The notes below the pieces were generated by a model. That model was not told the DNA's origin, made no database searches, and saw nothing but the letters and a program-made list of their open reading frames with translations. From Aquipuribacter sp. SD81 (GTDB lineage Bacteria; Actinomycetota; Actinomycetes; Actinomycetales; JBBAYJ01), in the NCBI RefSeq assembly GCF_037153975.1, contig NZ_JBBAYJ010000001.1, positions 186,001-250,000 of the forward strand: a DNA stretch of 64,000 nucleotides, given 5' to 3'. Each line of letters begins with the position of its first letter. Position 1 is the first letter of the stretch. A program made the position numbers and the translations under genes. Shown here piece after piece: positions 42,821 to 64,000 of the stretch.

Positions 42821-42850
42821 TTGTTCTCGCTAACAGGGTGTGGCTAACCT
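42821..42850 (+). promoter_or_regulatory. Promoter with LacI-type operator, WxL-like gene
   Basis: In the 306-base gap 42754-43059. TGTTCTCGCTAACA (42822-42835) matches the ideal palindrome TGTTAGCGCTAACA at 12 of 14 positions. It overlaps a possible -35 TTGTTC (42821) with TAACCT (42845-42850) as -10, 18 bases apart. The remaining about 210 bases before the gene at 43060 appear to be a long leader without a gene. Confidence 0.6.
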
Positions 42851-43059
42851 GCCTGGTGAGCGCGTCGATCCGACGACGGATCCACAGAGAGGTGGAGGAC
42901 AGGTGCCCGTGTCGTGGCCAGGTGAGCGCTACCGCGTACCAGCTGCCGCGACCGCGGACGGCTGTCGCGCCTGACGTCACCGCTCGACGTGGCGCCCGGA
43001 GGTACCGGGTGCCCGCACGACGACCGGCCGACGACGGCCGGGAAGTGGAGTACACAGAC

Positions 43060-43689
43060 ATGAGCACACGAGGCCTGCTCGCCCGCACCGTCGCGGGCGT
43101 CACCGGCGCCGTCCTCCTCACCGGTGTGGCCGGCGCCGCGTTCGCCGACCCCGTCGACGGCGAGGCCGAGAACGTCGAGATCGGCGTCACCATCGACGGC
43201 CTGGAGCCCGCGGGCGCCCTCACCATGAGCGTCGCCTCGAGCAGCACGGAGCTCGCCGAGGTCGACACCGACGAGGAGGGCATCCGCCGCTTCGACGGCA
43301 CGCTGCCGACCGTGACCGTCACCGACGACCGGGACGTGGCCCCCGAGAGCGCCTACTGGTACGTCACCGGCCAGTCGTCCGACTTCACCGCCGCAGAGGG
43401 TGACGCCACCCTGCCGGCCGGCCACCTCGGCTGGACCCCGGAGGTCCTCACCGACAACGACGGAGAGGTCGCCGCCGGCGACCAGGTGCTCACCATCCTC
43501 GACGAGGGCCCCGACGCGGTCGGCCTCGTCGGCGAGGAGCTCCTCGCGCTCGCGCTCGACTCGACCGAGGCGGCGGCGACGGGCACGTGGCAGGCCAACG
43601 CGGACCTCTTCCTCAAGACCCCCGAGGACGTCCCCGCGGGCGACTACTCCGCGACCCTCACCCTCACGCTGTGGGAGGACTCGTACTGA
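43060..43689 (+). CDS. Secreted WxL-like surface protein
   Basis: Exported protein of 209 aa with a Sec signal peptide (basic MSTRGLLARTV, hydrophobic core, cleavage about AFA-DP). The mature part is acidic and beta-rich: GTLPTVTVTDDRD, YWYVTGQSSDF, AGHLGWTPEVL and, at the end, PAGDYSATLTLTLWED. This layout is that of actinobacterial WxL-like proteins, although a strict Trp-x-Leu tripeptide is not present. The next gene encodes the DUF916-like partner, as in WxL/csc clusters of lactobacilli and enterococci. No membrane anchor or sorting signal is visible. Probably non-covalently held at the cell wall (inference). Confidence 0.62.
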   Translation: MSTRGLLARTVAGVTGAVLLTGVAGAAFADPVDGEAENVEIGVTIDGLEPAGALTMSVASSSTELAEVDTDEEGIRRFDGTLPTVTVTDDRDVAPESAYWYVTGQSSDFTAAEGDATLPAGHLGWTPEVLTDNDGEVAAGDQVLTILDEGPDAVGLVGEELLALALDSTEAAATGTWQANADLFLKTPEDVPAGDYSATLTLTLWEDSY

Positions 43690-43787
43690 GCCGTCCCCAG
43701 GACCGCTCGACCCCGTCGGCCGGGACCGCGGCGCACGCCGCGGTCCCGCCCGACGGCGTCCCGGCGTCCCTGCCTACGGTGTCGGGC

Positions 43788-44885
43788 ATGTCCGTCCGCC
43801 GCCCGCGCGCGAGCGCGCGCCTGGTCGTCGTCGCCGTCGTGGCGCTCGCCGCCGTCCTCGGGGCGCTGCCGGCGCGCGCCACGGCGCCCGCGCCGGACGC
43901 CCCGGCCGCAGGGTCCGAGGCCGCCCCGCCTCAGGCGCCGGCCGACGAGCTCCGCTGGTCGGTCGGGCCGGCGGACGCCGACGGACGGGACGAGCGCACG
44001 TCCGTCGAGCTCACGCTCGACCCGGGGGAGCGGGCCGAGGACCGGTTCGAGGTGGAGAACCTCAGCGACCGGGAGATCACCTTCCGGCTGGCCGCGGCCG
44101 ACGGCTTCTACACCCGCAACGGCCGCTTCGACGTCCTCGCGTCGGGGCAGGAGTCCGTCGCCGCGGGGACGTGGGTGGACCTGCCCGGCGAGGTCACGGT
44201 CGAGGCCGGGGGCACCGAGGTCGTCCCCTTCACCGTCACGGTGCCCGAGCGGGCGGAGCCCGGCGACCACGCCGCGGGCATCACCGCGTCGGTGCTGAGC
44301 ACGCAGACCGCCGACGACGGCGCGAGCGTCGGCGTCGAGAGCCGCGTCGGCTTCCGGGTGCTCACCCGGGTGACCGGCGAGATCGCGCCCGCGGCGTCCG
44401 TCGACGTGGTGGCTGCCGCCTACGACACCTCGTGGAACCCCTTCCGGCCGGGTGCCGCGGTCGTGGCCTTCGACGTCGTCAACGACGGCAACACCCGGCT
44501 GCTCGTGCAGGGCGCGGCCAGCGGTGCGGGCGGTCGCGGTGCCTTCCCGCCGGCCGGTGAGACGCGGCAGGAGCTCCTGCCCGGCGACGAGCGTCGCCTG
44601 CAGGTCGAGGTGCGTGGCGTGTGGCCGCTGCTGTACGTGCCGCTGGAGGTCGTGGTCGACCCCGAGGCCGCCACCATGGACGGCGCGAGCCCACCCGTCG
44701 GCACGGTGGCCGCGAGCACCGTGCTGTGGGCCGTCCCGTGGCCGCAGCTGCTGCTGCTGGCGGGTGTCGTGCTGGTCCTCGTCAGCCTCCTGGCCGGCCG
44801 GCGCCGTTCGCGCCGCCGGCTCGACAGCATGCTCGAGGCGGCGCGGGAGCAGGGCCGGCGCGACGCCGCGCCGGATGCTTCTTGA
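43788..44885 (+). CDS. DUF916-like (WxL partner) membrane-anchored protein
   Basis: Exported single-pass protein of 365 aa. Signal peptide (residues 1-34, ending PARATA), Pro/Ala-rich spacer, then an immunoglobulin-like region with LRWSVGPADADGRDERTSVE, LDPGERAEDRFEVENLSDREITF and GTEVVPFTVTVPERAEPGDHAAGI, matching the DUF916 peptidoglycan-binding domain family. A second beta domain leads to a C-terminal membrane helix (about 325-347) and a basic cytoplasmic tail (RRRSRRRLDSM). It follows the WxL-like gene by 98 bases. Pairing suggests it holds the WxL-like protein on the wall. Its stop codon TGA lies within the -35 box of the next promoter. Confidence 0.72.
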   Translation: MSVRRPRASARLVVVAVVALAAVLGALPARATAPAPDAPAAGSEAAPPQAPADELRWSVGPADADGRDERTSVELTLDPGERAEDRFEVENLSDREITFRLAAADGFYTRNGRFDVLASGQESVAAGTWVDLPGEVTVEAGGTEVVPFTVTVPERAEPGDHAAGITASVLSTQTADDGASVGVESRVGFRVLTRVTGEIAPAASVDVVAAAYDTSWNPFRPGAAVVAFDVVNDGNTRLLVQGAASGAGGRGAFPPAGETRQELLPGDERRLQVEVRGVWPLLYVPLEVVVDPEAATMDGASPPVGTVAASTVLWAVPWPQLLLLAGVVLVLVSLLAGRRRSRRRLDSMLEAAREQGRRDAAPDAS

Positions 44886-44931
44886 CACAGCCCGTCACGG
44901 CTATAGGCTGACTGTGTTGTTCCCGCTAACA
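44882..44931 (+). promoter_or_regulatory. Promoter with LacI-type operator before first GH43 gene
   Basis: A near-ideal promoter: -35 TTGACA (44882-44887), 16-base spacer, -10 TAGGCT (44904-44909). TGTTCCCGCTAACA (44918-44931), 12 of 14 matches to TGTTAGCGCTAACA, covers the expected transcription start, a position fit for repression by blocking the polymerase. Confidence 0.75.
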
Positions 44932-45026
44932 ACGCGTGGCCCACGCCGACGTGAGGCCGCGACCGGTCGTGCAACGGAGCCCGCCCCTCGTGCCACGGGC
45001 TCCTCACAGGAATAGAGGCCCGTCGT

Positions 45027-47975
45027 ATGCCGTCCCCCTCGTCCCCCCCGCTCCGCCGTCGCGCCTGCGCGCTCGCCGCCGCGGGCGCCCTCGCGCTCGC
45101 CGCGGTGTCGGTGCCCGTCGCCAGCGCGTCGACCACCGTCGACGACGGACCGGCCCCCCTCCTGCACTACACCTTCGACGGGCTCACGTCGGCCGCCGCC
45201 GGCACGACGGTGCCGGACGTCAGCGGCAACGGCTACGACGCCACCGTCCGCCAGTCCGGCGCGCAGGCCGCCGACGGCGTCCTCAGCCTGCCGGGCGGCG
45301 GGGCCGCGTCCGCCGGCTACGTCGAGGTCCCGACCGCGGGCCTCGTCGGGCAGGAGAGCCTCACGTTCTCGACGTGGCTGTCCCCGCGCTCCGCGCCCGG
45401 CAACGTCGCCGCGGCCTTCGTCGGGGCGCCCGTGGCCGCCGGCGCGTCCTTCTCCTCCGGCTACTGGCTGCTCAACCCCGCCAACCCGAGCGGCTACGTG
45501 AAGTCCGTCGTGACGAACAGCGTGAGCGCCGGCTCCCCGTGGACCACGGAGGTCGGGCCGGGGTCGACCGCGACCCCCACCGCGGGCGTGCGCACCCCGA
45601 GCGGTGCCGCGCTGTACACGACGGTCGTCGACGGCGCCGCCGGCCGCCTGCGGGTCTACGTCGACGGCCAGCAGGTCTCCGACACCGCCATCGCGCGCGA
45701 CGTGGCCGACTTCGGCACCCAGCTCGTCGCCTACCTCGGCCGCTCCACCTACAACGACCCGGGCTGGGCAGGCGACGTCGACGACTTCGCCGTGTACGGC
45801 GAGGCCCTCGCCGCCGCCGAGGTGCAGGCGCTGTTCGGCGAGCAGGCGCTGGAGCGCGCCGTGGCCGGGACGGACGTGCCGGCCGGCGCGACCGCGTCCT
45901 TCACCCTGCCGACCACGAGCTACGGGACCCAGGTCGCCTGGGTCTCCGACGACCCGGCGATCGCCGTGTCCGGTGGCGAGGCCACCGTCACGCGACCCGC
46001 CGCCGGCTCCGGCGACGCCACCGTCACGCTCACGGCCACCTTCACCGTCGGCGACGCCTCGCGGACCGCGACGTACACCGTGGTCGTGCCGCAGGAGCTG
46101 TCGGACGACGTGCGCGCCGACCTCGACGCCGCCGCGCTGGAGGTCGACGAGCCGGGCGACGTCCGCGGCAACTTCGCCGTGCCGACGACCGGCGCCAACG
46201 GCTCCACGGTCGAGTGGTCGGTGGGCGAGGGCGCCGACCGCGTGTCGCTGCGCGACGGGGTCACCGACACCTCGCGCACCGTCGTGGTCGAGCGCCCCGC
46301 CCCCGACGAGGAGGCGGCCGAGGCCGTCCTCGTGGCGACCGTCCGCTCCGGCTCGGCCACCCGGACCCGCGAGTGGCGCCTCACGCTCCCGGCGCTGCCG
46401 GCGGGCACCGACGACACCGAGGCGTACTTCTGGGCCTTCTTCACCGGCGAGGGCGACGGCGCCGAGCGCGTCAGCCTGGCGGCGTCGAAGGGCAACGACG
46501 CGCTGGACTGGAACACCCTCAACGACGGTCAGCCGGTCTTCTCCTCCGACCTCGGGACCGAGGGACTGCGCGACCCGTTCATCATCCGCTCGCCCGAGGG
46601 CGACACGTTCTACATGATCGCCACCGACCTCAAGGTCGCGGGCCTGCCGGGCGGCTTCGCCACCGCGCAGCTGCGCGGCTCTCGCTACATCGAGGTCTGG
46701 GAGTCCGACGACCTCGTGAACTGGTCCGAGCAGCGCCACGTCAAGGTGTCGTCGGACTACGCCGGCAACACGTGGGCGCCCGAGGCGTTCTGGAGCGAGG
46801 AGCTCGACACCTTCGTCGTGTTCTGGGCGTCCAACCTCTACGACACGACCGACGCGAGCGCGCGGACCGCCGTCACCTACAACCGCATGATGTACGCGCT
46901 CACCGACGACTTCCGGACCTTCTCGGAGCCGACGGAGTGGATCGACGTCCGCCGCGGCGCCGGCCGGGGCATGATCGACTCCACGGTGGCCCTCGAGGAC
47001 GGCGTCTACCACCGCTTCACCAAGGACGAGGCGTCGATGACGATCCGTCACGAGAGGTCGACGGACCTGCTCGACACCGTGGAGGGCACCCTTCCCGGCA
47101 CCACCGGACCGGCGGACGAGTGGACCCTCGTGCAGGAGCGCGTCGCCTCCGGACTGCCCAACGGCGAGCCCGGCGGGACGTTCTCCAGCGGTGAGGGGGC
47201 CAACATCTTCCGCGCCAACGAGGGCGACGTGAACGGGCTCGACTGGTTCCTCTTCATCGACCAGCCGGACTACCACGGCGGCCCGAACCACTACATCCCG
47301 TTCGGCACCGACGACCTCGACTCCCGGTCGTGGACGCCGCTGGGGAGCAAGCTGCGCGAGAACCTGCCGCAGAACGCCGACGGCGGCGAGCCGCGCCACG
47401 GCACGGTCATCCCCGTGACGCGGGAGGAGTACGAGCGCATCCTGCGGGCCTACGCCCCTGAGATCGCCGTCACCGACGCCGCCGTCGAGCAGGTCAGCAC
47501 CGAGGCGGGGACCGCACCGGTCCTGCCGACGACGGCCACCCTCACGACCGCGGCCGGGTCCACCCGCACCGCGACGGTCGTGTGGGACGACGTCGACCCC
47601 GCCGACTACGCGGCACCGGGCACGTTCACCGTGCGGGGGACCGCGCAGGACGACTCGCGGCGCCCTGTCACGACGACCGTCACGGTCGTCGGGGCCGCGG
47701 GACCGCAGGTGTCGGTGACGGCGGACACCCGCTGCGTCGCGGGCCGGGTCGTGCAGACCGTCCGCCTCGGCAACGACTCCGACGGTGCCGTGCAGGTCGT
47801 CGTCCGCTCCGACTGGGGCAGCCGCTCGGTGTCGCTCGCGGCCGACGGCGGCTCGAGCGTCGCCTTCTCCACCCGGCTCGCCCAGGCGCCCGCCGGCGAG
47901 GTGACCGTCACCGCGGCCGCGGGCGGGGCCGAGACGGTCACGACCGCGGCGTACGGCGCCCGCAGCTGCGGCTGA
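45027..47975 (+). CDS. Secreted multidomain GH43-type glycosidase 1
   Basis: Exported protein of 982 aa. Signal peptide (1-35), LamG-like jelly roll (about 44-270), two atrophied Ig-like domains (276-455), a GH43-type five-blade propeller (about 464-800), an Ig-like Big_4 domain (about 810-890), and the island's shared C-terminal module (RCVAGRVVQTV ... ARSCG). The GH43 triad can be placed: base Asp516 (GLRDPFIIRS), Asp651 (GMIDSTVALEDG), acid Glu723 (SSGEGANIF). Expected to release arabinofuranosyl or xylosyl groups from plant polymers; the exact linkage is not readable. It has its own LacI-regulated promoter and a strong terminator, so it is a single-gene unit. Confidence 0.85.
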   Translation: MPSPSSPPLRRRACALAAAGALALAAVSVPVASASTTVDDGPAPLLHYTFDGLTSAAAGTTVPDVSGNGYDATVRQSGAQAADGVLSLPGGGAASAGYVEVPTAGLVGQESLTFSTWLSPRSAPGNVAAAFVGAPVAAGASFSSGYWLLNPANPSGYVKSVVTNSVSAGSPWTTEVGPGSTATPTAGVRTPSGAALYTTVVDGAAGRLRVYVDGQQVSDTAIARDVADFGTQLVAYLGRSTYNDPGWAGDVDDFAVYGEALAAAEVQALFGEQALERAVAGTDVPAGATASFTLPTTSYGTQVAWVSDDPAIAVSGGEATVTRPAAGSGDATVTLTATFTVGDASRTATYTVVVPQELSDDVRADLDAAALEVDEPGDVRGNFAVPTTGANGSTVEWSVGEGADRVSLRDGVTDTSRTVVVERPAPDEEAAEAVLVATVRSGSATRTREWRLTLPALPAGTDDTEAYFWAFFTGEGDGAERVSLAASKGNDALDWNTLNDGQPVFSSDLGTEGLRDPFIIRSPEGDTFYMIATDLKVAGLPGGFATAQLRGSRYIEVWESDDLVNWSEQRHVKVSSDYAGNTWAPEAFWSEELDTFVVFWASNLYDTTDASARTAVTYNRMMYALTDDFRTFSEPTEWIDVRRGAGRGMIDSTVALEDGVYHRFTKDEASMTIRHERSTDLLDTVEGTLPGTTGPADEWTLVQERVASGLPNGEPGGTFSSGEGANIFRANEGDVNGLDWFLFIDQPDYHGGPNHYIPFGTDDLDSRSWTPLGSKLRENLPQNADGGEPRHGTVIPVTREEYERILRAYAPEIAVTDAAVEQVSTEAGTAPVLPTTATLTTAAGSTRTATVVWDDVDPADYAAPGTFTVRGTAQDDSRRPVTTTVTVVGAAGPQVSVTADTRCVAGRVVQTVRLGNDSDGAVQVVVRSDWGSRSVSLAADGGSSVAFSTRLAQAPAGEVTVTAAAGGAETVTTAAYGARSCG

Positions 47976-47982
47976 GGTAGGA

Positions 47983-48014
47983 GCCGCGGGGCCGGTCCCG
48001 ACCGGCCCCGCGGC
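47983..48014 (+). terminator. Strong hairpin after glycosidase 1
   Basis: A perfect 15-bp stem pairs 47983-47997 with 48000-48014 (GCCGCGGGGCCGGTC), starting 8 bases after the stop. No T-run follows, which is usual in such GC-rich genomes. Confidence 0.7.
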
Positions 48015-48088
48015 CCGCCCGCCCCACCCCTCGCACCCCGACCCGTGTCTCGCCGCGCCACCCGTCCCACGAGGAAGTAGGACCCGCT

Positions 48089-51000
48089 GTGCCCAGGACC
48101 CCCTCCCGCCGCGTGCTCGCCGGCGTCACCGCCGCCGTCCTCGGACTGTCCGGCGCGGCCGTCGCCACCGGCCCTGCCGCGGGGGCCACGACCGACGACG
48201 GCCTCGTCGCGCACTGGCCGCTCACCGAGACCGGCGGCACCGTCGCGGCCGACGTGTCCGGCTCCGGCCGGGACGGCACGTACGTCGGCGGCCCCACCCT
48301 GACCGGGGGCGAGGGCGTCCGGCTCGACGGCGTCGACGACCACGTCGACCTGCCCGACGACCTGCTCGCGGGCCTGGGCTCGGTGACCGTGAGCGCCGAG
48401 GTGCTCATCCGCGCCGGCCAGGCCTCGCCGTACTTCGTGTACGGCTTCGGCAACACCACCTCCGGCGTGGGCGACGGCTACCTGTTCACCTCCGGCACGC
48501 CGTACCGGGCCTCCATCGCCTCCGGCAACTGGACGACGGAGCAGACCGTGAACAGCGGAGCGGACCTCACGCGCGACGCGTGGCGGACGCTCACCTACAT
48601 CCTCGACGACGCCAGCGACACCGCGCGGCTGTACCTGGACGGTGAGCAGGTCGCGAGCAGCACGTCCGTGACCCTCACGCCGGGCAGCATCGGGGGCGGG
48701 GCCACGACGGCCAACTACCTCGGGCGGTCCGTCTACACCGCCGACCGCTACCTCGCCGGCAGCCTGCGCGAGGTCCGGCTGTACGACCGGGCCCTGTCCG
48801 CGGCCGAGGTCGCGGCGCTGCCCCCCTCGGCCGAGGTCGCGCTCGAGCGCGACCTCGCGTCCCTCGACCTGGGCGACCTCGGCGCCGTGACCGACGACCT
48901 CCGCCTGCCCACCACCGCCGCGAACGGGTCGAGCGTGCAGTGGTCCTCCAGCGCCGCCGACGTCGTCGCCCCCGACGGCACCGTGACGCGTCCCGCGGCG
49001 GGCGAGCCCGCCGCCGAGGTGACCCTCACCGCGACGCTGACCCGGGGAGGCGCGACGGGTACGCGTGAGTTCGTCGTGACCGTCGTCCCGGCCGCCGGTG
49101 CGGAGCAGCTCGCGGCCGAGGACCTCGACGCGCTGTCGGTGCCGGACGCCGACGACGTGCGGGGCAACATCACGCTGCCCACCACGGGCGAGGTCAACGG
49201 CAGCCCGATCGAGTGGAGCGCGACGCCGGAGGGCGTCGTCACGACCGAGGCGGTCGACGGCGTGGCGGCCGGTGCCGTCACCCGCGGGGAGCAGGACACG
49301 CCTGTCACCCTCACCGCCCGCGTGCCGGGCACCGAGGCCACCCGGACGATCGAGGTGACCGTCACCGCCGCACCCGCCGACCTCGACACGGACTACACGG
49401 CCGGCTACCTGTGGACCCACTTCGCCACCGAGGGCGGCTACGAGAAGATCTTCCTCGGCCACAGCGACGACGGCCTGCACTGGGAGAAGCTCAACGACAA
49501 CCGGCCGGTCCTCGCCAACCTCGCCGGCGACCTCGGCGTCCGCGACCCGCACCTCGTGCGCTCCCCGGACGGCGACCGCTACTGGATCATCGGCACGGAC
49601 CTGCACGCCGAGGGCGGGGGACCCGGCGGGTCCGGCTGGGACCAGCTGAACGCGAGCCAGGACCTCGTCGTGTGGCAGTCCGAGGACCTCGTCACGTGGA
49701 GCGACCAGCGCATCGTCTTCGCCGGCTTCCCCGACGCCGGCAACGTGTGGGCGCCCGAGGCGGTGTGGGACGAGGAGTCCGGTCAGTACTACGTCTACTG
49801 GTCGGCGCGCGACCGCCGCGACAACGGGACCGAGGACTGGGCGCTCCGGGTCTACGTCACGACGACCCGCGACTTCGTCACCTTCTCCGAGCCGCGCGTC
49901 TGGGCCTCGCTCAACGAGCAGGGCGACGGTGCGGGCGGGCCCAACATCATCGACTCGAGCATCGCGGTCGAGGACGGCGTCTACTACCGCTTCTCCACCT
50001 CCGACTGGCGCACCGTCATCGACACCGCTCCGAGCCTCGACGGACCGTGGACCACGGTCGTGGCCGCGGGCGAGGCCGGCGCGCACGGGCTGCGCGAGCG
50101 CATGGAGGGGCTGACCGTCTTCGAGCTGCCCGACGGGCGCTGGGCGCTGTTCGGGGACGACGGCGGCTACTACGGCCACGTCACCGACAGCCTCGTGAGC
50201 CTGCAGTTCACCGAGCTCGGCGTCGGCAGCGGGCCCGACCAGTACTCGTTCTCCCAGCGGTTCCGGCACGGCTCCGTCATCCAGCTGTCCGCCGCGGAGG
50301 AGGAGCGGCTGCTCGCCGCCTACGGTGACGAGCCCACCGACCCGACGGACCCGACGGACCCGACGGACCCGACGGACCCGACGGACCCGACGGACCCGAC
50401 GGACCCGACGGACCCGACGGACCCGACGGACCCGACGGCGGGCCCGGTCGCGGAGTACACCTTCGACGACGGCACGCTGGCGGACTCCGTCGGCGACGCC
50501 GACCTCACCGCCTTCGGCTCCGCGGCGGTCGTCGACGACGCCGAGCGCGGCCAGGTGCTGCGCCTGGACGGCAGCGCGGGCGGCTACGCGGCCTTCCCGA
50601 CCGGCTTCTTCGACGGCCGGTCCGAGCTCACGGTCTCGATGGACGTGCGCTCGGAGCTGACGAGCGGCAACTTCTTCACCTTCGCCCTCGGCCGCGACAC
50701 CACCGACTACTACTTCCTCCGCGTGCGCGGCGGAGAGGTGCGCAGCGCCATCACCCAGGCCTCGTGGCAGAGCGAGTCGGCGGTCACCGGGACGGTGGCG
50801 GCGGGGGAGTGGCACCGCTTCGACGTCGTCGTGGACGGCCGCAGCATGGCCGTCTACGTCGACGGCGTCCTGCTCGGGCGCAACGACGAGCTGTCCGCGG
50901 GCGTCGACGACCTCGGCGAGGACCTGCTCGGCTGGCTCGGCCGGTCCTTCTACGGTCCGGACCGCTACTTCCAGGGCTCCTTCGACGACATCCGGGTCCA

Positions 51001-55032: not shown

Positions 55033-55064
55033 GTCTGGCGCGCAGCCCGTGCCGCGGGCGGACG

Positions 55065-55101
55065 AGGAGGGGCGGACCGGGTCGACCGGACCGCCCCTCC
55101 T
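55065..55101 (+). terminator. Hairpin after glycosidase 3
   Basis: An 11-bp stem (AGGAGGGGCGG with CCGCCCCTCCT), extended inside by CCGG/CCGG across one A-A mismatch, loop GTCGA. It lies 33 bases after the stop and before the next promoter. Confidence 0.65.
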
Positions 55102-55138
55102 GCCGTCGACGCCGCCTGGTCGCGGGCGGTTCGGTGGG

Positions 55139-55178
55139 TTGGAACGACAAAATGTGACCGCTAACGTGAGCGATAACA
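55139..55178 (+). promoter_or_regulatory. Promoter with two LacI-type operators before glycosidase 4
   Basis: -35 TTGGAA (55139-55144), 17-base spacer, -10 TAACGT (55162-55167). Two half-overlapping palindromes, TGTGACCGCTAACG (55153-55166) and CGTGAGCGATAACA (55165-55178), each match TGTTAGCGCTAACA at 11 of 14 positions and cover the -10 box and start point. Confidence 0.7.
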
Positions 55179-55219
55179 GCGGACGTCGGTGTCCGCGTGT
55201 GCACGCAACGGAGTGTGTG

Positions 55220-58200
55220 ATGAGAACCTCCCGTCCCCGTCGGTCCGCGGTCGTCGCCGCGGTGGTCGGTGCCCTCGTCCTCGCCTCGGCGGGGACAGCG
55301 GTCGCACAGGCCGCCGTACCGGACGACGGCCTCGTCGCCGAGTACCTCTTCGACGAGACGTCCGGTGCCACCGTCCCCAACACCGCCGAGGGCTCGGACC
55401 TCGGGCCCGCCACCGTCCGGAACGTCCAGGCCACGGACTGGACGGGCTCGGCCCTCACGCTGCGGGGCGGGGCCAAGACGTCCACCGGCAACTGGGTCGA
55501 GCTGCCCGACGACATCCTGCTGGGCGAGCGCTCGGCCACCGTCACCGCGGAGGTCCGTGCGTCGGCCGCGATGCTCAACACCTTCCACTTCCTGTGGAAC
55601 GTCGGCAACGAGTCGTCGGCCACCGAGTACTTCTTCACGTCCCTCAACTGCGGCAACAGCCGCACCCCGCTCGTGGGCATCAAGTCCGGCGGCACCGAGC
55701 AGCTCGTGCAGTCCGGCTCCTGCGGCGTGACGGCGAACCAGTGGTTCAACGTCACCGCCGTCGTGGACGGCAGCGGCTCCCAGGCCACCGCCTCGCTGTA
55801 CCTCGACGGCACCCGGGTGGCGCGCGGCGACGTCGCCCGCACCCCCGCCGACGTCGTCGACCAGTCCCTCAACACCATCGGCCGCGCGCCGTGGCCCGAC
55901 CCCCTCTTCGCCGGTGCCATCTCGGCGTTCCGCGTGTACGACCGTGCCCTCAGCGACGCCGAGGTGGCCGAGGTCTCCGCGACCGACGTGCAGGCGCACG
56001 CCGAGGAGATCCGGGCACAGGCGGACGCCGTCCTGACCGGGCTCGACCTCACCGACCTCGAGACCAGCGGCGACATCGACCTGCCCACGGCCGCGGGCCG
56101 GGTGACGTGGACCTCCAGCGACCCCGACGTCGTGGCCGCGGACGGCTCGGTCGAGCCCCCGCTGACCGGCGAGCCGGCGGTCGAGGTGGAGCTCACCGCG
56201 ACCGTGTCGATCCGCGGCATCAGCGCCACCCGCACCATCACCGTCACGGTCCAGCCGTCCGACGAGACCCCGGACGAGCGCGTCGAGCGGCTCGCCCAGC
56301 AGATGGTCGTGCCGCCCGTCGTCGCCTCGGGCACGGCGCTCCCGCCCGCCCCGGCCGGCACCACCGCCGAGGTCACCGCGACCGAGGGCGTCGACGTCGT
56401 CGACGGCGCGGTCGTCTCCGGCTCCGACGAGCCCGTCGAGGGCACCGTGACCGTCGAGGTCACCGACTCCGCCACGGGCGCCACCACCACGCGCACCTTC
56501 GCGGTGCGGGTGCTCCCGGCGACCGCGGAGCAGCTGCTGGCGTACTCCCGCACCCCCACCAGCGCCGCGCAGGCCAACAACGCCGACGTGGCGCTGAGCA
56601 TGCACCTCGCGCTGGCCGAGGACGGCACGTGGTCGCCGCTCAACGGCAACTACGGGATCTGGTTCGCGCGCACGGCCTCGACGCCGGCCCCGGGCGGCAC
56701 GAGCAGCGGCATCATCCGCAGCCTGCGCGACCCCCACGCCTTCTACCTGGCCGACGGCCGCTTCGGCGTGGTGGCCACCCGCACCCTGCGCAACGGGGGC
56801 GTCGACCCCTCGCAGGCCTCGAGCATGCTGCTCGCCACGAGCGACGACCTGCGCTCCTACACCGAGGTCGGGCTCGTGGACCTCGGGGTCACGAGCGGCG
56901 TCAACGACCCCGCCGTCGTGTTCGACAGCGCCTCGGACCTCTACGTGGTCTCGTGGACCTCCGACGCCGGCGCCGCCCAGTACACGACCTTCGGTGACCT
57001 CACCGACCCCGCCACCCGGGGCGAGGTCCGTCGGGGTGTCGTGACCGCCACGGCCGGGGTCGCGGACACCGGCGTGGCGAACTACGCCACCGGCAACTCC
57101 CTCCCCGTGACGGTCGACGTGGCCGACGCGCTGCGCGTGCGCTTCGAGGCCATCTACAACACCGGGGTCGAGTCCTCCGACGACGTCACCGTCGAGGAGG
57201 GCGCCGAGCTCACCACGGCGGACCTGCCCGAGCGGGTCAGCCTCACGTACAACGACGGCTCCACCGCGAGCCGCGCCGTGACGTGGGACGAGGCGGCACT
57301 GGCCGCGGTCGACACCGACACCCCCGGCACGTACGAGGTGACCGGTGAGGTCCGGACCCCCGAGTACCCCGAGCCCTTCTCGGACGAGCGCGCCGACCCG
57401 ACCATCTTCACGCACGACTGGAACGGTCGGACCCGCTACTACTTCATCGCCACCAACGACCTGAACCTCAACCCGGTCAACCCGACCAACGGCGTCTTCA
57501 TGCCCTTCCGCGCCGCCGACACCATCGACGACCTGTCCGACGAGGGCCTGGCGGACGGTCGCAGCACCGAGGTCAACCTGCTGGAGGAGGGCGACACCGA
57601 CGCCTACGGCAACGTGATCACCGGCTGCTTCTGGGCGCCGGAGATCCACGTCATCGACGGCTACCTGTCGATCCTGTTCATGCCGTGCTACGACGGCTCC
57701 AACGGCCAGCCCGACATCTTCACCGGCCGCGCGAGCATCATCCAGCTGCAGAAGGACGCCGAGGGCAACGACCTCGAGCCCACCGACCCCGCCAGCTGGA
57801 GCGAGCCGGAGTACGTCGTGCGCGCCGACGGCTCGATCCTCAACCCGATCCAGAACATCTCGCTCGACATGACGTACTTCGTCGACGGCGACCAGTCGTA
57901 CTACGCCTGGCAGCAGGTCGGCGCGGTCTTCATCGCGCGGGTGGACCCGTCGGAGCCGACGCGGCTCACCTCGCCGCCGGTCCGCATCTACGCCCCGGTC
58001 TACGCCTGGGACAACACCATCGCGGAGGGCCCGAACGTCCACATCCGTGACGGCGTCGTCTACATGCTGTACTCCGGCTCGCTCGTCGGGGACACGTACA
58101 CCACGGGCCTGCTGACCGCCGAGGTCGGGGCCGACCTGACCGACCCGGCGGCGTGGGAGCCCCTCAACTACCCGATCCAGAAGTCGGAGATGTTCGAGGG

Positions 58201-58729
58201 GGAGTGGCAGCTCGGCCCGGGCCACGGCATGTGGTCCTACGACGAGGACGACAACCTGCTGTACGTCTACCACGCCCGCACGAGCAACCTCGGGCTCACC
58301 GGCCGCGACACCTTCGTGCGCCGGGTGCACTTCGCCGCCGACGGCCTCCCGATCCTCGACATGGAGCGTGACGAGGAGGTGGCGCCGGAGAACCGCACGG
58401 TGTCGGTGACCGTCGTGGTCGAGCCGCGCGAGACCCAGCAGCTCGACGTCTCGGCGGTCATGACCGCCCGGTGCGTGGCCGGTCGCGCCGTGCAGGTCGT
58501 CACCCTCTCCAACGGCGAGGACGTCTCGGTGTCCGCCGAGGTCACCTCGCCCTACGGCAGCCGCGCGACCGCGTCGCTGGATGCCGGTCGCAGCGTGTCC
58601 TACGCGTTCTCGACGCGGCGGACGGCGTTCGAGGCCGGTACGGCAACCCTCGACGTCGGGGCGGTCGTGGACGGCGAGACCGTCGAGGTCTCGAGCACCG
58701 TGTCCTTCGACGCCTTCTCGTGCTCGTGA
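55220..58729 (+). CDS. Secreted GH43 glycosidase 4 with a second, incomplete propeller
   Basis: Exported protein of 1169 aa. Signal peptide (1-33), LamG (about 36-255), Ig-like domain(s) (about 270-430), a short propeller-like region (436-605), a Big_4 Ig-like domain (about 645-715), a full GH43 propeller (725-1070), and the shared C-terminal module (from about 1083, RCVAGRAVQVV ... FSCS). Full propeller triad: Asp726 (ADPTIFTHD), Asp883 (SLDMTYFVDG), Glu936 (AEGPNVHI). The first propeller keeps LRDPHAFY (Asp504) and VNDPAVVF (Asp563) but ends before any acid Glu, so it looks inactive or truncated. ATG 55220. Coupled by GTGA to glycosidase 5. Confidence 0.86.
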   Translation: MRTSRPRRSAVVAAVVGALVLASAGTAVAQAAVPDDGLVAEYLFDETSGATVPNTAEGSDLGPATVRNVQATDWTGSALTLRGGAKTSTGNWVELPDDILLGERSATVTAEVRASAAMLNTFHFLWNVGNESSATEYFFTSLNCGNSRTPLVGIKSGGTEQLVQSGSCGVTANQWFNVTAVVDGSGSQATASLYLDGTRVARGDVARTPADVVDQSLNTIGRAPWPDPLFAGAISAFRVYDRALSDAEVAEVSATDVQAHAEEIRAQADAVLTGLDLTDLETSGDIDLPTAAGRVTWTSSDPDVVAADGSVEPPLTGEPAVEVELTATVSIRGISATRTITVTVQPSDETPDERVERLAQQMVVPPVVASGTALPPAPAGTTAEVTATEGVDVVDGAVVSGSDEPVEGTVTVEVTDSATGATTTRTFAVRVLPATAEQLLAYSRTPTSAAQANNADVALSMHLALAEDGTWSPLNGNYGIWFARTASTPAPGGTSSGIIRSLRDPHAFYLADGRFGVVATRTLRNGGVDPSQASSMLLATSDDLRSYTEVGLVDLGVTSGVNDPAVVFDSASDLYVVSWTSDAGAAQYTTFGDLTDPATRGEVRRGVVTATAGVADTGVANYATGNSLPVTVDVADALRVRFEAIYNTGVESSDDVTVEEGAELTTADLPERVSLTYNDGSTASRAVTWDEAALAAVDTDTPGTYEVTGEVRTPEYPEPFSDERADPTIFTHDWNGRTRYYFIATNDLNLNPVNPTNGVFMPFRAADTIDDLSDEGLADGRSTEVNLLEEGDTDAYGNVITGCFWAPEIHVIDGYLSILFMPCYDGSNGQPDIFTGRASIIQLQKDAEGNDLEPTDPASWSEPEYVVRADGSILNPIQNISLDMTYFVDGDQSYYAWQQVGAVFIARVDPSEPTRLTSPPVRIYAPVYAWDNTIAEGPNVHIRDGVVYMLYSGSLVGDTYTTGLLTAEVGADLTDPAAWEPLNYPIQKSEMFEGEWQLGPGHGMWSYDEDDNLLYVYHARTSNLGLTGRDTFVRRVHFAADGLPILDMERDEEVAPENRTVSVTVVVEPRETQQLDVSAVMTARCVAGRAVQVVTLSNGEDVSVSAEVTSPYGSRATASLDAGRSVSYAFSTRRTAFEAGTATLDVGAVVDGETVEVSSTVSFDAFSCS

Positions 58730-61647
58730 CGGGGGCCGGAGGTCGGGGCGCCGGCCGCACGGTCGCGACGGTCGCCGCCGTGACGCTCGTCGGGTCGCTC
58801 GCGGTGGTGGTGCCCGTCACCACCGCCGCGGGCGCCCCCGCCGAGGGGGCGCTGCGCGACGGTCTCGTCGCGGAGTACCTCTTCGAGGAGGCCGACGGTG
58901 AGGCGGTGCGCAACAGCGCCGACGGCGACGTGACCGCCGCCGACCCGCTGGACGCGGTCGTGCGCAACTACGCCGCCGCACAGCGGTCGGAGCCGGGCAC
59001 GCTGCGGTTCACCGGCGGCGCGAAGTCGTCGACCGGTAACTGGGTGGAGCTGCCGGACGACCTGCTGGCCGACGCGCAGTCGGCCACGGTGTCGGTCGAC
59101 GTCCGCGCCGACGCCACCATGCTCAACAGCAACCACTTCCTGTGGAACATCGGCAGCGAGTCGACGCAGCAGTACTGGTTCGCCACCACCCGTGGTCCGC
59201 GCTCGGCCATCACCACCGGCGGCTCGGGCGGGGAGAGCAGCGGTACGGGCTACGCGATGACCGCCGCGCAGTGGCACAGCCTGACGGCGGTCGTGGACGG
59301 TGAGGCGGGCACGATCACGCTCTACACCGACGGGCAGCGTTCCGGCGTGGGCACGACGACGGCGACGCCGTCGGACATCGCGCAGACGCTCAGCACCATC
59401 GGGCGGGCGCCGTACAACGACCCGCTGTTCGCGGGGGCGGTCGGGGCCTTCCGGGTCTACGACCGTGCCCTGGCCGACGACGAGGTCGTCGAGCTGTCCG
59501 AGCACGACGCGGTCGCGCACGCCGACAGCCTGCGCGCGGTGGCGGACCGCACACTGGCCGCCGTCGACCTCGGCGACACGTCGACCCTGACGGACGACAT
59601 CGACCTCTTCGAGCTCCGTGGGATCTCGTGGGCGTCGTCGGACCCGTCGGTGCTCGCCGGCGACGGCGACCTCAGCCGGCCCGCGGTCGGGGAGCCCGAC
59701 GCCACGGTCACCCTCACCGCGACCGCCGCCGCCCGCGGGGTGCCTGCCACCGCGGCGCGCAGCTTCACGGTCGGCGTCCCGGCGCTGACCGAGGCCGACG
59801 TCGCCGCGGACGGGGCGGCGCTGCAGGTGCCGGACCGGGCCCTCGGCAACCTCTACCTGCCCGGCCAGGGCGAGGCCGGTGCCCCGGTGCGGTGGCAGTC
59901 CTCCGACGACACGGTCATCACCGACGAGGTCGAGGGCGCCGCGGCGCCGGGCGTCGTCACGCGACCGGCGTGGGGCGGGCCGGACGAGACGGTCACCCTG
60001 ACCGCCACGGTCGGCGAGGGCACCTCTGCCGTCACCCGCACCTTCGAGGTGACCGTCGCGGCGGCCCCACGACCCGCGGTCGACAGCCGCTACCTGTTCG
60101 CCTACTTCACCGGCGACACGCTGGCGGGGGAGCGGATCTCGCTCGCGGCGTCGCGGGGCAACAGCGCGATGACGTGGGACGTGCTGAACGGCGGTCAGCC
60201 GGTGCTGTCCTCCACCGAGGGCACGGGTGGGCTCCGTGACCCGTTCGTCATGCGCTCGGCCGAGGGCGACCGGTTCTTCATGATCGCCACGGACCTGTCG
60301 ATCGGCAGCGGCACGTCGTGGACGCAGGCGCTCGACGAGGGCAGCACGCACCTGGAGATCTGGGAGTCCACGGACCTGCGCACCTGGTCCGAGCAGCGCC
60401 ACGTCAGCGTCTCCGGGCCCTTCGCGTCGATGACGTGGGCACCGGAGGCGTACTGGGACGAGGCGGCGCAGGAGTACGTCGTGTACTGGTCCTCGCGCGT
60501 CTACCCCGACGCCACGCGTCCATACGACAAGGCGCGCACGCCCAACTCGACGTACTCCAAGGTGATGTACGCGACGACGCGCGACTTCGTCCACTTCTCC
60601 GACGCGGTGGTGTGGCAGGAGGCCGGTGACCGCATCGACACGACGATGATCGAGGACGACGGCACGTTCTACCGGTTCACCAAGGAGGTGACCGGCTGCG
60701 TCGACATCACGCAGGAGTCGTCGCCGTCGATCCGGGCACTGACCGTGCCCGGGGAGTACGACTGGACCACGCAGGCCAGCTGCATCTCCAAGCGGGCGCG
60801 GAACACCACCCGGACCACGGAGGGCCCGACGATCTTCCGCGCCAACGCCGGCGACACGTCGCTGCCGGAGGGGGTCGACGAGGGCTTCTACCTCTTCGTC
60901 GACGACTTCACCGGCGCCGGCTACCTGCCGCTGTTCAGCGAGTCGCTCGCGGACCCGGACTGGCGCACGGTCGCGGGGTCCCTGCCGACGTCGCGGCACG
61001 GCAGCGTCATGCCCGTCACGCTCGAGCAGTGGCAGTCCGCGCGCGGCGAGGAGGTCACCGAGGTGGCGACGACCACGACGCTGGAGGGTCTCTCCGACGG
61101 TGCCGTCCTCGAGGGCGGGGACACCCTCCGCGTGGTCGTGACCGCCGACGACGGCGGTCCGGTCGCGGGGGCGGTGCAGGTGAGCATCGGCGGGCGGACG
61201 CTCGACGCGGTGCTCACCGACCGGGACGGACGCCACGTCGGGGAGGTGGTCGTGCCCGACGACCTCACCGCGGGCACGGCCGTGCCGGTCAGCGCCTCGT
61301 ACGCGGGGCTCGCGCCGGTGGCCGCGTCGACGTCGACGACCACGACCGTCGCCGTCGCCGAGGACTCGCCGTCGGTCGGCGCCCGGGTGCAGACCCGGTG
61401 CGTCGCCGGTCAGGTCGTCCTGGCGGTGACGGTCGCCAACACGGGCAGCGGGTCCGTCACCGTCAGCGTGGGCTCGGCCTACGGGCGCCGGGGGCCGGTC
61501 CGCCTCGTGGACGGGCAGAGCACCTCGGTTGCGATCACGACACGTCTGGCCTCCGTGGCGGCCGGCTCCGTCGACGTCCGGGCCACCGACGCGACGGGGC
61601 GCACGGTCACCCAGCGGGTCGGGTACGCCACCACCAGCTGCGGCTGA
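58726..61647 (+). CDS. Secreted multidomain GH43-type glycosidase 5
   Basis: Exported protein of 973 aa. Signal sequence RTVATVAAVTLVGSLAVVV (cleavage near residue 36), LamG (45-260), atrophied Ig-like domains (280-447), GH43-type propeller (452-770), an extra Ig-like domain (780-880, TTTTLEGLSDGAVLEGGD), shared C-terminal module (885-973, RCVAGQVVLAV ... TTSCG). Triad: Asp505 (GLRDPFVMRS), Asp638 (RIDTTMIEDDG), Glu699 (TEGPTIFRAN). A Cys pair (CVDIT and ASCIS) inside the propeller may form a disulfide. GTG 58726 overlaps the stop of glycosidase 4; GTG 58720 is an alternative. Confidence 0.85.
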   Translation: MTGAGGRGAGRTVATVAAVTLVGSLAVVVPVTTAAGAPAEGALRDGLVAEYLFEEADGEAVRNSADGDVTAADPLDAVVRNYAAAQRSEPGTLRFTGGAKSSTGNWVELPDDLLADAQSATVSVDVRADATMLNSNHFLWNIGSESTQQYWFATTRGPRSAITTGGSGGESSGTGYAMTAAQWHSLTAVVDGEAGTITLYTDGQRSGVGTTTATPSDIAQTLSTIGRAPYNDPLFAGAVGAFRVYDRALADDEVVELSEHDAVAHADSLRAVADRTLAAVDLGDTSTLTDDIDLFELRGISWASSDPSVLAGDGDLSRPAVGEPDATVTLTATAAARGVPATAARSFTVGVPALTEADVAADGAALQVPDRALGNLYLPGQGEAGAPVRWQSSDDTVITDEVEGAAAPGVVTRPAWGGPDETVTLTATVGEGTSAVTRTFEVTVAAAPRPAVDSRYLFAYFTGDTLAGERISLAASRGNSAMTWDVLNGGQPVLSSTEGTGGLRDPFVMRSAEGDRFFMIATDLSIGSGTSWTQALDEGSTHLEIWESTDLRTWSEQRHVSVSGPFASMTWAPEAYWDEAAQEYVVYWSSRVYPDATRPYDKARTPNSTYSKVMYATTRDFVHFSDAVVWQEAGDRIDTTMIEDDGTFYRFTKEVTGCVDITQESSPSIRALTVPGEYDWTTQASCISKRARNTTRTTEGPTIFRANAGDTSLPEGVDEGFYLFVDDFTGAGYLPLFSESLADPDWRTVAGSLPTSRHGSVMPVTLEQWQSARGEEVTEVATTTTLEGLSDGAVLEGGDTLRVVVTADDGGPVAGAVQVSIGGRTLDAVLTDRDGRHVGEVVVPDDLTAGTAVPVSASYAGLAPVAASTSTTTTVAVAEDSPSVGARVQTRCVAGQVVLAVTVANTGSGSVTVSVGSAYGRRGPVRLVDGQSTSVAITTRLASVAAGSVDVRATDATGRTVTQRVGYATTSCG

Positions 61648-61658
61648 CGCGCCGGACC

Positions 61659-61700
61659 GACGACGCCCCGCCGAGGCCCAGGCCTCGGCGGGGCGTCGTC
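61659..61700. terminator. Very strong bidirectional hairpin
   Basis: A perfect 20-bp stem, 61659-61678 paired with 61681-61700, centred on GGCCCAGGCC. It separates the convergent ends of glycosidase 5 and the VOC gene and can stop transcription from both sides. Confidence 0.8.
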
Positions 61701-61743
61701 GTGCGCGCCGGACCCCGTTACGGGCTGCCCGCCCGGGCGCCGG

Positions 61744-62079
61744 TCAGGTCCCGGTGACGACGACGAGGTTGCCGTCGGCGTCGCGCAGCCGGAGGATGCG
61801 GGCGCCGCCGCCCGGCTCCGGGCCGTCGAGGGCGATGCCGGCCTCACGCAGCCGGCTCGCCTCGGCGTCGAGGTCGTCGCTGCCCAGGACGAGCTGCGAC
61901 ACCCCGGAGCGGTCGGCGTCCCGCCAGACCTGGAGCCCGGACCCGGACGCGAGGTGCCACTCGAGCAGGCCGGGCATGGGGCGGGCGTCAGGGCCGCGGC
62001 CGAACAGCGTCGTGTACCAGGTCTCGGCGGCGTCGAGGTCCGACACGACCGCGCCCGCGAGGACATGAGAGAACGTCAT
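61744..62079 (-). CDS. VOC-family (glyoxalase/bleomycin-resistance fold) protein
   Basis: Small cytoplasmic protein of 111 aa with one VOC module pair: AGAVVSDLDAAETWYTTLFGRGPD, WHLASGSGLQVW, and LRDADGNLVVVTG, the last a strand that usually supplies a metal ligand or substrate contact. The family covers lyases, dioxygenases and drug-binding proteins, so no reaction can be assigned. It lies alone between the two convergent/tandem parts of the GH43 island, 50 bases from the stop of glycosidase 6 on the same strand. ATG 62079. Confidence 0.85.
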   Translation of the reverse strand: MTFSHVLAGAVVSDLDAAETWYTTLFGRGPDARPMPGLLEWHLASGSGLQVWRDADRSGVSQLVLGSDDLDAEASRLREAGIALDGPEPGGGARILRLRDADGNLVVVTGT

Positions 62080-62129
62080 GAGCGGGGAGACCCGCCCATG
62101 ACGTCCGACTCATCGGTCGTGCCGCTACC

Positions 62130-64000
62130 TCAGCAGGTGGCAGGCGCGTAGTCCGCGGTCGCGCTGCCCTCGGCCCCACCCGCGGTCGCCGTGACCTGCG
62201 CCGAGCCCGCCGGCACCGACGCCTGCCGGGTGGACAGCGCCACCGACGACCCGCGACCGGGCTCGAGGGTGCCGAGGTCCCGGGTGCCGTACGGCGTCTC
62301 GACGACCGCCCGCACCGGGGCGTCGTGCTCGTTGGTGGCGCGGACCACGAGCGCGACGCGCCCCGCCACGCAGCGGGTGGACGCGGTGGCGGTGACGTCG
62401 ACACCCTCGGCGGCGCCGACGACCACCCGTGCGCTCACCGGGATGGCCGTCGTGCTGTACAGCTCACGGTCCGGTGCACCGTAGGCCGTCGAGCCGTTGG
62501 CGCCCACCCACGCGTTCAGGTTGGCTCCGATGGTGCGCACGGTGCCGCTCACCTCGTAGCTGCCGGGTGTGGACGCGTCGACGCTCGCGACGTCCCACTC
62601 GACGGGCTGCTCGGCCGTGCCGCGGCCGTAGGCGAGCGTCACCTCGGCGGTCGCCGGAAGGGCGGCCCGGACGGCTGCGGCGTCGGCGTCCGCCGGTACC
62701 CCGACGCTGCCCAGGTCCTCGGTGACGGCACCGGTGGCGTCGGCCTCCCGGACCTCGTCGTACTGCTCGCGGGTGAGCCCGACGATGCCGCCGTGCTTGG
62801 TGCTCGGGGCCATGGAGAAGTCGGGGGAGCTCAGCAGCTCCCAGCCCGCGTCGAGGTCGGTCGTCGTGAGCGGCCGGTAGCCGACGATCGGGATGACGTC
62901 GACGTACAGGTACCACCGCTCCTCGTCGTGCGCCTTGAAGATCGCAGGACCCTCCACGCCGCCGGGGTTGTCATTCGCGTACTCCGCCCCGATGCGGTCC
63001 TGGATCTGCGTCCACTCCGCCGCCGGCTCCCACCAGCGCTCGGCCGTGGTCGACTCGTAGTACAGCCCCGTGCCGAAGGTGTTGTCCTTGGTGACCCGGT
63101 ACGTGGTGCCCTCGTGCTGGGTGATCGTCGTGTCGATGGTGTTGCCGCCCTCGTCGATGAACACCCCGCCGAAGTCGTAGGTCTCCTGCGTGAAGTCGGG
63201 CGTCGCGCCCCACATCACGCGGGAGTACGTGCTGCCGGTGTGCTGCGCGTCGTCGTACAGGTTCGACGACCAGTACAGGACGAACGCGCCGCGGCCGTCG
63301 GCGTAGTAGTCATCGACCCACGTGGCCTCGGGCGCCCAGGCCATGCCGAGCTCGGCCTGCTCGATGCCGTCGTCGACGGCGACGTCGAACTGGCGCAGGT
63401 CGCTCCACGTGACGAGGTCCTGCGACTCCCACACGTTCAGCTTCGTGCTGCCCTGCGAGCTCCACCAGCACCACGACGTGCAGCTGCCGGAACCCTGGTT
63501 GCCGCCGAAGACGCGCAGGTCCGTGGCGATGACGTAGTACGTGCCCGTCTCCGGGTTGTACGTGAGGTACGGGTCGCGGACACCGGTCGTGCCGAGGTCG
63601 GAGGCGAGGATCGGCTCGCCGCCGTTGAGGGGGTCCCACTGCTCGGGGTTGTCGCCCCGGGACACGTCGAGGTAGATCTTCTCGGCGTAGCCGGCGGGGT
63701 CCTCGATGAAGTGGACCATGAGGTAGCCGTAGTCGTCGTCCGGCTCGGCGGCCGGCTCGGCGGTGACCGTCACCTCGCGCGACGCGCTCACGCCGCGGAC
63801 GCTCGCGGTCGCCGTGAGGGTGCCGCTGCGGGGCTCGCCGCCGGCGGTCGGGAGGTCGGTGGTCACGGACGTGCCGTCCGCGGACACCTCCAGCGACGTG
63901 TCCGTCGAGGACCACGAGACGGTGCCGCCGTAGTCCGGCAGGTTGGTGACGGTGTCGTCGAGGGTGACGTCGACGACCCGGTCCAGCGCCGCGCGCGCCG
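62130..64000 (-). CDS. Secreted multidomain GH43-type glycosidase 6, 5' end missing
   Basis: Runs off the right edge; about 623 codons are visible and the frame stays open to base 64000. From the edge inward: end of an atrophied Ig-like domain (ALDRVVDVTLDDTVTNLPDY), GH43-type propeller with GVRDPYLTYN, TIDTTITQHEG and VEGPAIFKAHD as the likely base Asp, second Asp and acid Glu, a Big_4-like domain (EQPVEWDVASVDASTPGSY), and the shared C-terminal module (RCVAGRVALVV ... APATC). A Cys/Trp-rich insert SGSCTSWCWWSS in the first blades is peculiar to this copy. It is on the opposite strand from the other five, so its promoter is outside the window. Confidence 0.85.
   Translation of the reverse strand, partial: ARAALDRVVDVTLDDTVTNLPDYGGTVSWSSTDTSLEVSADGTSVTTDLPTAGGEPRSGTLTATASVRGVSASREVTVTAEPAAEPDDDYGYLMVHFIEDPAGYAEKIYLDVSRGDNPEQWDPLNGGEPILASDLGTTGVRDPYLTYNPETGTYYVIATDLRVFGGNQGSGSCTSWCWWSSQGSTKLNVWESQDLVTWSDLRQFDVAVDDGIEQAELGMAWAPEATWVDDYYADGRGAFVLYWSSNLYDDAQHTGSTYSRVMWGATPDFTQETYDFGGVFIDEGGNTIDTTITQHEGTTYRVTKDNTFGTGLYYESTTAERWWEPAAEWTQIQDRIGAEYANDNPGGVEGPAIFKAHDEERWYLYVDVIPIVGYRPLTTTDLDAGWELLSSPDFSMAPSTKHGGIVGLTREQYDEVREADATGAVTEDLGSVGVPADADAAAVRAALPATAEVTLAYGRGTAEQPVEWDVASVDASTPGSYEVSGTVRTIGANLNAWVGANGSTAYGAPDRELYSTTAIPVSARVVVGAAEGVDVTATASTRCVAGRVALVVRATNEHDAPVRAVVETPYGTRDLGTLEPGRGSSVALSTRQASVPAGSAQVTATAGGAEGSATADYAPATC

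Follow-up and report, generated by a model that had tools for sequence, protein, structure and literature searches.

In cohesin-dockerin cellulosomes, many enzymes carry one type of C-terminal docking domain, which engages a dedicated receptor tied to the cell surface by an anchor. Sortase/LPXTG systems and other C-terminal sorting tags are likewise built on a cargo-independent signal, with dispersed substrates and few dedicated partner genes. Firmicutes possess WxL clusters, among which the csc clusters are counted. These clusters encode a small WxL protein, a large WxL protein and a WxL-interacting protein (WxLIP) with DUF916 and DUF3324 domains (PMC10599100, PMC9772566); the WxLIP has been proposed, and modelled, to bind WxL through DUF916 (PMC10599100), and a further paper mentions DUF916 genes near other domains (PMC12537917). 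Here we describe a comparable arrangement in a 64,000-nucleotide stretch (the window) of the 3.86 Mb, high-GC actinobacterial genome of Aquipuribacter sp. SD81, where a small WxL-like secreted protein (P0001) and a DUF916 protein (P0002) are encoded beside six large secreted proteins (E1 to E6). A sequence-only reading of the window had placed the pair beside these enzymes, and the genes were found where it had put them; it had also suggested that a C-terminal module common to the enzymes docks onto the pair. Our analysis indicates that the module is probably a docking domain for the small WxL protein, which the WxLIP would tie to the membrane, leading to surface display of the enzymes.

The module comprises ~95 residues with two cysteines, one in an RCVAG motif near its start and the other at its end. 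It is present once in each of E1 to E6, as had been read from the sequence, and alignment of the six copies reveals 18 invariant columns out of 98. The host genome holds nine copies in total, six in the window, one 1.2 kb beyond the end of the window, a single copy on contig 6 and another on contig 9; the copy just past the window belongs to a seventh large protein (G000:C1:251241-254129, or L059:5241-8129) encoded divergently from E6. Profile searches assigned the module to no family: the best Pfam match among 20 modules was FlgD_ig at an E value of 9.4e-4, below the cut-off, with other families weaker, and two modules compared with NCBIfam came close to no cut-off. By sequence, the module matched only designed proteins in the PDB, and the PDB searches made with module and WxL together returned designed proteins, one antibody domain and nothing else. 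Dockerin was absent from all 20 families listed for the modules, and cohesin from the 25 families listed, out of 30, for the WxL forms.

Inspection of the proteins that bear the module showed that its position is near-constant and its cargo is not. In 124 of 129 proteins, only 0-7 residues follow the module. A Pfam scan of 45 diverse cargo proteins found GH43 in 16, and the other domains, among the matches listed (25 of 71 families), include GH98, GH59, GH20, GH95, GH123, GH30 and phosphoesterase. A tag that tracks its receptor rather than a substrate is consistent with a role in sorting or docking. In several assemblies, modules lie within a few hundred bases of contig starts (contigs C41 and C46 of genome G478, C72 and C75 of G527, C103 and C246 of G467, and C76 of G667), and in G478 WxL fragments are found at these starts too; near-identical neighbouring copies seem to have broken these assemblies, in which module counts are perhaps too low.

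Across genomes, the module and the small WxL protein occur together far beyond chance. We searched 396 genomes of the order (the order set) with profiles of the module (A2, E<=1e-4) and of the short WxL protein (A3), defining a short-WxL genome by a match of at least 125 bits to A3 and scoring at most 12 module candidates per genome; in an overlapping set of 325 genomes of the class (the class set), at most 15 were scored. The module was present in 28 of the 29 short-WxL genomes of the order set, compared with 26 of the 367 others (Fisher p 8e-27), and in 20 of 20 short-WxL genomes of the class set (in G478 by fragments only), compared with 11 of 305 others (Fisher p 2e-24), both p values being inflated by the relatedness of the genomes. 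Permutation within six genera, covering the listed genomes rather than all 396 and with counts entered by hand, gave p of about 1e-5. Every order-set genome with at least five scored modules (16/16) is a short-WxL genome, and of the 26 module genomes without a short WxL, 17 have a single match and none has more than four. The same pattern is seen within the genus of the host, where two species with a short WxL carry 9 and 7 modules and a third species has neither. Genome G066, with at least 12 scored modules on one contig and one short WxL, points to dispersed modules that share a single receptor. The WxLIP (profile A4) was found in 80 of the 396 order-set genomes.

The two genes are also neighbours. 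We scanned named genomes with A3 and took the best 80 of 179 loci, selected by WxL sequence and not by the module; these come from Microbacterium, Agromyces, Rathayibacter, Frigoribacterium, Isoptericola, Georgenia, Tessaracoccus, Micromonospora, Herbidospora, Nonomuraea, Jiangella and other genera. A module gene lies immediately upstream, on the same strand, of 66 of the 81 short-WxL genes in these loci, and somewhere in the fetched stretch for 76. Among the five genes with no module in the stretch, one (L108) is at a contig start, one (L099) is on a contig of 5.6 kb, and one (L115) has an upstream gene that seems off-frame at its end; the remaining two are considered below. For the 25 of 63 module-WxL pairs that have all four proteins, WxL distances correlate, once WxLIP is allowed for, more strongly with those of the module next door (partial r 0.35) than with those of another module of the same locus (0.02). 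The set of WxL, WxLIP and module-bearing enzyme recurs in a Nonomuraea record and on two plasmids, pCPRO01 of Cellulosimicrobium protaetiae (L215) and pCCh of Clavibacter phaseoli (L216), on both of which the short WxL is annotated as a 'hypothetical protein'.

At some loci, one reading frame runs through both the module gene and the WxL gene, with a single stop between them. Such a pair from Isoptericola halotolerans, homologous to that of the window, was folded with AlphaFold2 as one chain of 325 amino acids consisting of the module, the stop read as W, a linker, the signal peptide and WxL, with an alignment of 81 rows, 10 of them naturally joined. The predicted template modelling score (pTM) of this chain was 0.76, and the predicted local distance difference test score (pLDDT) was 85-98 in most blocks of both domains and 33-54 in the linker. 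Because the pTM expected by arithmetic is about 0.52 for undocked domains (and about 0.74 for an inter-domain error of 3 A), this value implies that the module is placed on WxL with confidence in the model. A control chain from Micromonospora, in which the same kind of module rows was combined with the CBM4_9-type domain of the next gene (329 amino acids, 64 rows), gave a pTM of 0.51, against its own estimates of 0.43 undocked and 0.65 docked at 3 A. The docking interpretation of the sequence-only reading is thus supported by computation, and the predicted partner is the small WxL. Fold searches identified the module as a common Ig-like sandwich (best match 9fyn, Z 9.4) and showed a resemblance of the WxL part of the Isoptericola chain to self-complemented FimA (6erj, Z 8.6, root-mean-square deviation 3.5, 138 residues), although Z values of this size do not prove relatedness.

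We refer to P0001 as WxL-like because it misses the Pfam WxL cut-off and because the second W-x-L motif is absent. The label derives from homology to long-form actinobacterial proteins: when PF13731 was compared with 39 short and long forms, four matched at E<=1 (best 6.8e-4), and three of these, all below the cut-off, are the long forms L068, L072 and L075. The earlier description of P0001 as WxL-like stands through its long-form relatives and not through a profile match of its own; on the host genome, PF13731 gave one chance-level match, at another place. The first motif is W-x-V in 29/29 short forms, and the second reads LTLSLFE in 20 of the 29 and W-x-L in none. A search for Firmicutes WxL sequences by way of plasmids returned actinobacteria only.

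Homologs of P0001 were found in 13 of 59 genomes searched, its own included, and fall into two forms that are set apart by their neighbourhoods. The short stand-alone forms (188-213 amino acids) occur at eight loci including the window; at each of these, a large protein with the module is encoded no more than 1.5 kb away, and the stretch also contains a WxLIP. The long forms are proteins of 423-875 amino acids in which the WxL-like domain is C-terminal, and none of nine long-form loci without a short WxL contains a module gene. In several long forms, the C-terminal WxL-like domain is fused to GH18, GH53, GDPD, esterase or phosphoesterase domains; since these fusions join enzyme and WxL directly, the module and the small WxL would do in two pieces what the fusions do in one. 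Six enzyme-WxL fusions each adjoin a WxLIP gene: L068 (GH18), L069 (esterase), L072 (GH53), L073 and L074 (both phosphoesterase) and L076 (GDPD).

The second protein of the pair is a member of the WxLIP family by profile. P0002 matches PF06030 (WxLIP_PGBD) at 34.7 bits, above the cut-off of 27.3 (E 2e-8), and is the single PF06030 match in the host genome at E<=0.1. Its hydropathy profile has a hydrophobic N-terminus and a C-terminal maximum of 2.32 at residue 319, followed by a basic tail. Both results agree with the anchored DUF916-like protein that had been read here, so that profile searches bore out the DUF916 half of the pair and, for the WxL half, gave only the sub-threshold matches of the long forms. 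DUF3324 (HBD) is not among the six families given for P0002 at E<=10, and the WxLIP profile A4 matches the solved EfmWxLIP1 (9i25/9i1y) weakly, with an E value of 0.018. The host genome has one WxLIP match and one WxL-like match.

In the mechanism we propose, the module, an Ig-like domain, would dock non-covalently onto the small stand-alone WxL-like protein, and the WxLIP would hold this protein at the cell surface, its DUF916 domain binding WxL and its C-terminal helix residing in the membrane; WxL is perhaps also a peptidoglycan binder. Module-bearing arabinan-type glycosidases would be retained on the wall in a shared complex and would work together on arabinan-like polymers as a group of surface-bound enzymes, resemblance to GH43 being what suggests the type of sugar. 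A LacI-type switch may co-induce the parts, with sugars of such polymers as the signal. We consider it slightly better than an even bet that these parts form an undescribed modular surface-display system in actinomycetes, extending from Microbacterium, Agromyces and Isoptericola to Micromonospora, Herbidospora and Jiangella, in which many unrelated hydrolases share a C-terminal docking module, one small pilin-like WxL protein serves as receptor, and the WxLIP serves as membrane anchor. Such a system would be cohesin/dockerin-like and of independent origin, with genome-scattered modules plugging into few receptors. Among the papers listed in searches of the open PMC literature, assessed by titles, abstracts and term counts and with subscription papers and preprints outside their scope, none dealt with WxL in these genera or with the module.

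Several observations weigh against this proposal. Not every module requires the pair, since in 35 searched genomes (26 of the order set and 9 further ones of the class set) a module was matched but a short WxL was not. A repeat search of these 35 for the short WxL, in which all candidates were scored in 32 genomes and 83 of 87-98 in the other three, and for which G215 and G478 served as positive controls, gave no match of at least 125 bits and weaker matches in 15. Among genomes in which no short WxL was found, G410 carries six modules, G388 four and G038 three (L200-L202, L206, L207, L214). Four genomes (G451, G434, G521 and G611; L195-L198) have a LacI-cargo-cargo operon that is like that of G557 (L210), as judged by gene order and ends without alignment, and that is missing the WxL/WxLIP pair; because of these operons, the pair looks like a two-gene cassette that enters or leaves an operon as one piece, with the modules remaining in place. 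Where a module has no short WxL, its enzyme may be released, or may use another receptor. In the other direction, G076 has the WxL/WxLIP pair and no module, two short-WxL loci with full flanks (L100 and L132) have none either, and in G185 the module is not terminal. The resulting asymmetry, in which the receptor is almost always accompanied by the module and the module not always by the receptor, is compatible with a dedicated receptor.

Further points on the same side concern the other lines of evidence. The coupling of WxL and module distances may reflect co-inheritance. The docking prediction consists of one co-fold and one control, evaluated by pTM and pLDDT, and the folded chain contains a signal peptide as well as the stop read as W; the control is not docked with confidence, yet lies above its undocked baseline, and its partner domain has lower pLDDT and no further paired rows. 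P0001 itself has no Pfam or NCBIfam match and does not reach the PF13731 cut-off. Finally, CGCTAAC, the bare core of the operator-like pattern described below, shows no enrichment within the window (4 occurrences, with 2.07 expected), and the operator evidence as a whole is plausible, not strong.

The module could also be a carbohydrate- or cell-wall-binding Ig-like domain that acts alone, with WxL and WxLIP forming an adhesive surface complex of their own, and module and pair travelling together because each serves the use of plant polysaccharides; the modules in the 35 genomes without a short WxL and in operons without the pair would fit this, and the fold of the module, a common Ig-like sandwich, would suit such a role. 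This account sits poorly with the immediate adjacency of module and WxL genes and with the lack of modules at long-form loci, and just as poorly with a cargo drawn from very different enzyme families and the difference in pTM between co-fold and control, and we regard it as unlikely. A less probable arrangement still is that the module binds the WxLIP, or only the WxL-WxLIP complex, WxL being a spacer or chaperone. The gain or loss of WxL and WxLIP together in one operon would fit this, as would the Ig-like domains of the WxLIP, itself the proposed WxL binder in Firmicutes (PMC10599100); yet a WxLIP lies in the fetched stretch of only 36 of the 63 module-WxL pairs, and the co-fold with WxL, the one partner folded, is already confident. 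That the enzymes are secreted free, the module stabilising them or pairing them with one another and the WxL link reflecting linkage in mobile sugar-use islands, would agree with their lack of a covalent anchor and with the Cellulosimicrobium and Clavibacter plasmids, but is very improbable, as the association recurs across many genera and in some genomes the modules are dispersed, apart from the WxL gene, something that linkage by itself would not account for.

Docking to WxL would act on enzymes in which no covalent anchor was seen. Five of the large secreted proteins are encoded on the strand of P0001 and one on the opposite strand, and their parts are LamG, aBig, Big_4 and GH43 or GH43-like domains. 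The earlier description of six GH43 enzymes is borne out only in part: GH43 is above the Pfam cut-off in E2 and E4; it is below the cut-off in E1, E3 and E5, and was not detected in the 622 amino acids of E6 that were scanned. E1 to E3, the enzymes scanned for it, match an arabinofuranosidase model below its cut-off. Neither a C-terminal LPXTG signal nor a membrane helix was found in E1 to E6, as the sequence-only reading had it, and the WxL/WxLIP pair has no C-terminal LPXTG signal either; a sortase-substrate reading was dropped when no such signal was found.

With regard to regulation, sites similar to the pattern TKTKNNCGCTAACR precede P0001 (42822), E1 (44918) and E4 (55153). A shared operator type had been claimed, and the similar sites are there, but the pattern was derived from these three, so that their match to it is by construction and partly circular. 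Because the pattern was read off the window sites, only a fourth exact match is independent; it is the sole further one in 3.86 Mb and lies on contig 6, 0.26 kb before another module-bearing enzyme. When one mismatch is allowed, the genome has 28 sites, compared with 11 for the reversed pattern, and two one-mismatch sites lie between the divergent genes for E6 and the seventh module enzyme. A palindrome, TTANCGNTAA, was also tried as an operator and gave nothing. A regulon common to the pair and the module enzymes is likely from these sites, and we infer that the LacI protein is their binder. One-mismatch sites are also present at C6:70275 and 70364 of the host genome (L060:15275 and 15364), and the gene set downstream of them (L060:15430-20000) resembles, by eye, an operon for a transporter; a sugar importer may belong to the regulon. 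The features of the window are collected in Table 1.

Table 1. Features of the WxL/WxLIP and module-enzyme region, in window coordinates; genes were called with a custom script and start positions are approximate.
Feature	Position	Strand	Basis
LacI-family regulator, candidate regulator of the island	41677..42753	+	Pfam LacI and Peripla_BP_3; adjacency
Operator-like site TGTTCTCGCTAACA, upstream of the WxL/WxLIP pair	42822..42835	+	one of 3 pattern-source sites
P0001, short stand-alone WxL-like secreted protein, proposed module receptor	43060..43689	+	homology
P0002, WxL-interacting protein (DUF916/WxLIP), proposed membrane anchor	43788..44885	+	PF06030 above cut-off
Operator-like site TGTTCCCGCTAACA, before E1	44918..44931	+	pattern match; pattern-source site
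E1: LamG, aBig, GH43-like (below cut-off), Big_4, C-terminal module	45027..47975	+	Pfam/NCBIfam
E1 C-terminal docking module (putative)	47694..47972	+	
E2: LamG, aBig, GH43-like, second LamG, GH43, C-terminal module; start codon uncertain	48089..52492	+	
E2 C-terminal docking module (putative)	52211..52489	+	
E3: LamG, aBig, GH43-like (below cut-off), C-terminal module	52516..55032	+	
E3 C-terminal docking module (putative)	54751..55029	+	
Two overlapping operator-like sites before E4	55153..55178	.	pattern match
E4: LamG, aBig, Big_4, GH43, C-terminal module	55220..58729	+	Pfam
E4 C-terminal docking module (putative)	58433..58726	+	
E5: LamG, aBig, GH43-like (below cut-off), C-terminal module; start from custom gene caller	58720..61647	+	
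E5 C-terminal docking module (putative)	61360..61644	+	
E6: Big_4, weak aBig, C-terminal module; runs past window end; 871 amino acids in full	62130..64000	-	
E6 C-terminal docking module (putative)	62133..62411	-	

If the proposed display system is real, many soil and plant-associated actinomycetes could retain large enzymes that cut polysaccharides at the cell surface with no need for sortase signals, and a function would be at hand for proteins now annotated as 'hypothetical' or 'DUF916' as well as for the unnamed module. WxL biology would extend from Firmicutes to enzyme display in Actinomycetota, and the compact docking pair could be used for surface display.

Set against described systems, the locus is like Firmicutes WxL clusters in that a small WxL-like protein, standing alone, is encoded next to a DUF916 protein that has a membrane helix, and in a tie to carbohydrate use, described for lactobacilli. 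It differs in that the other partner is a group of enzymes with a separate two-cysteine Ig-like module in place of a large WxL, in that the small WxL has the LTLSLFE type of motif in place of the second W-x-L, in that no DUF3324 match was found, and in that neither the enzymes nor the pair have a C-terminal LPXTG signal. The actinobacterial long-form fusions have a related WxL-like domain, the usual WxLIP neighbour and a tie to hydrolases, but there WxL is joined to the enzyme itself and the module is absent from the neighbourhood (0/9 loci). Like sorting tags, the module is C-terminal, independent of its cargo, dispersed and served by few partner genes; unlike sortase/LPXTG tags, it is a folded domain proposed to dock non-covalently, and no sorting enzyme is seen in the cassette. 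The scans revealed no family shared by the locus and the cohesin-dockerin system. The model shows the module as an Ig-like beta sandwich and not a calcium-binding dockerin, and the proposed receptor consists of one pilin-like domain, with no scaffold of several receptors in evidence. In its manner of working, the proposed set of module, WxL and WxLIP would nonetheless resemble the cellulosome, with many enzymes carrying one C-terminal docking domain for a dedicated receptor held at the cell surface.

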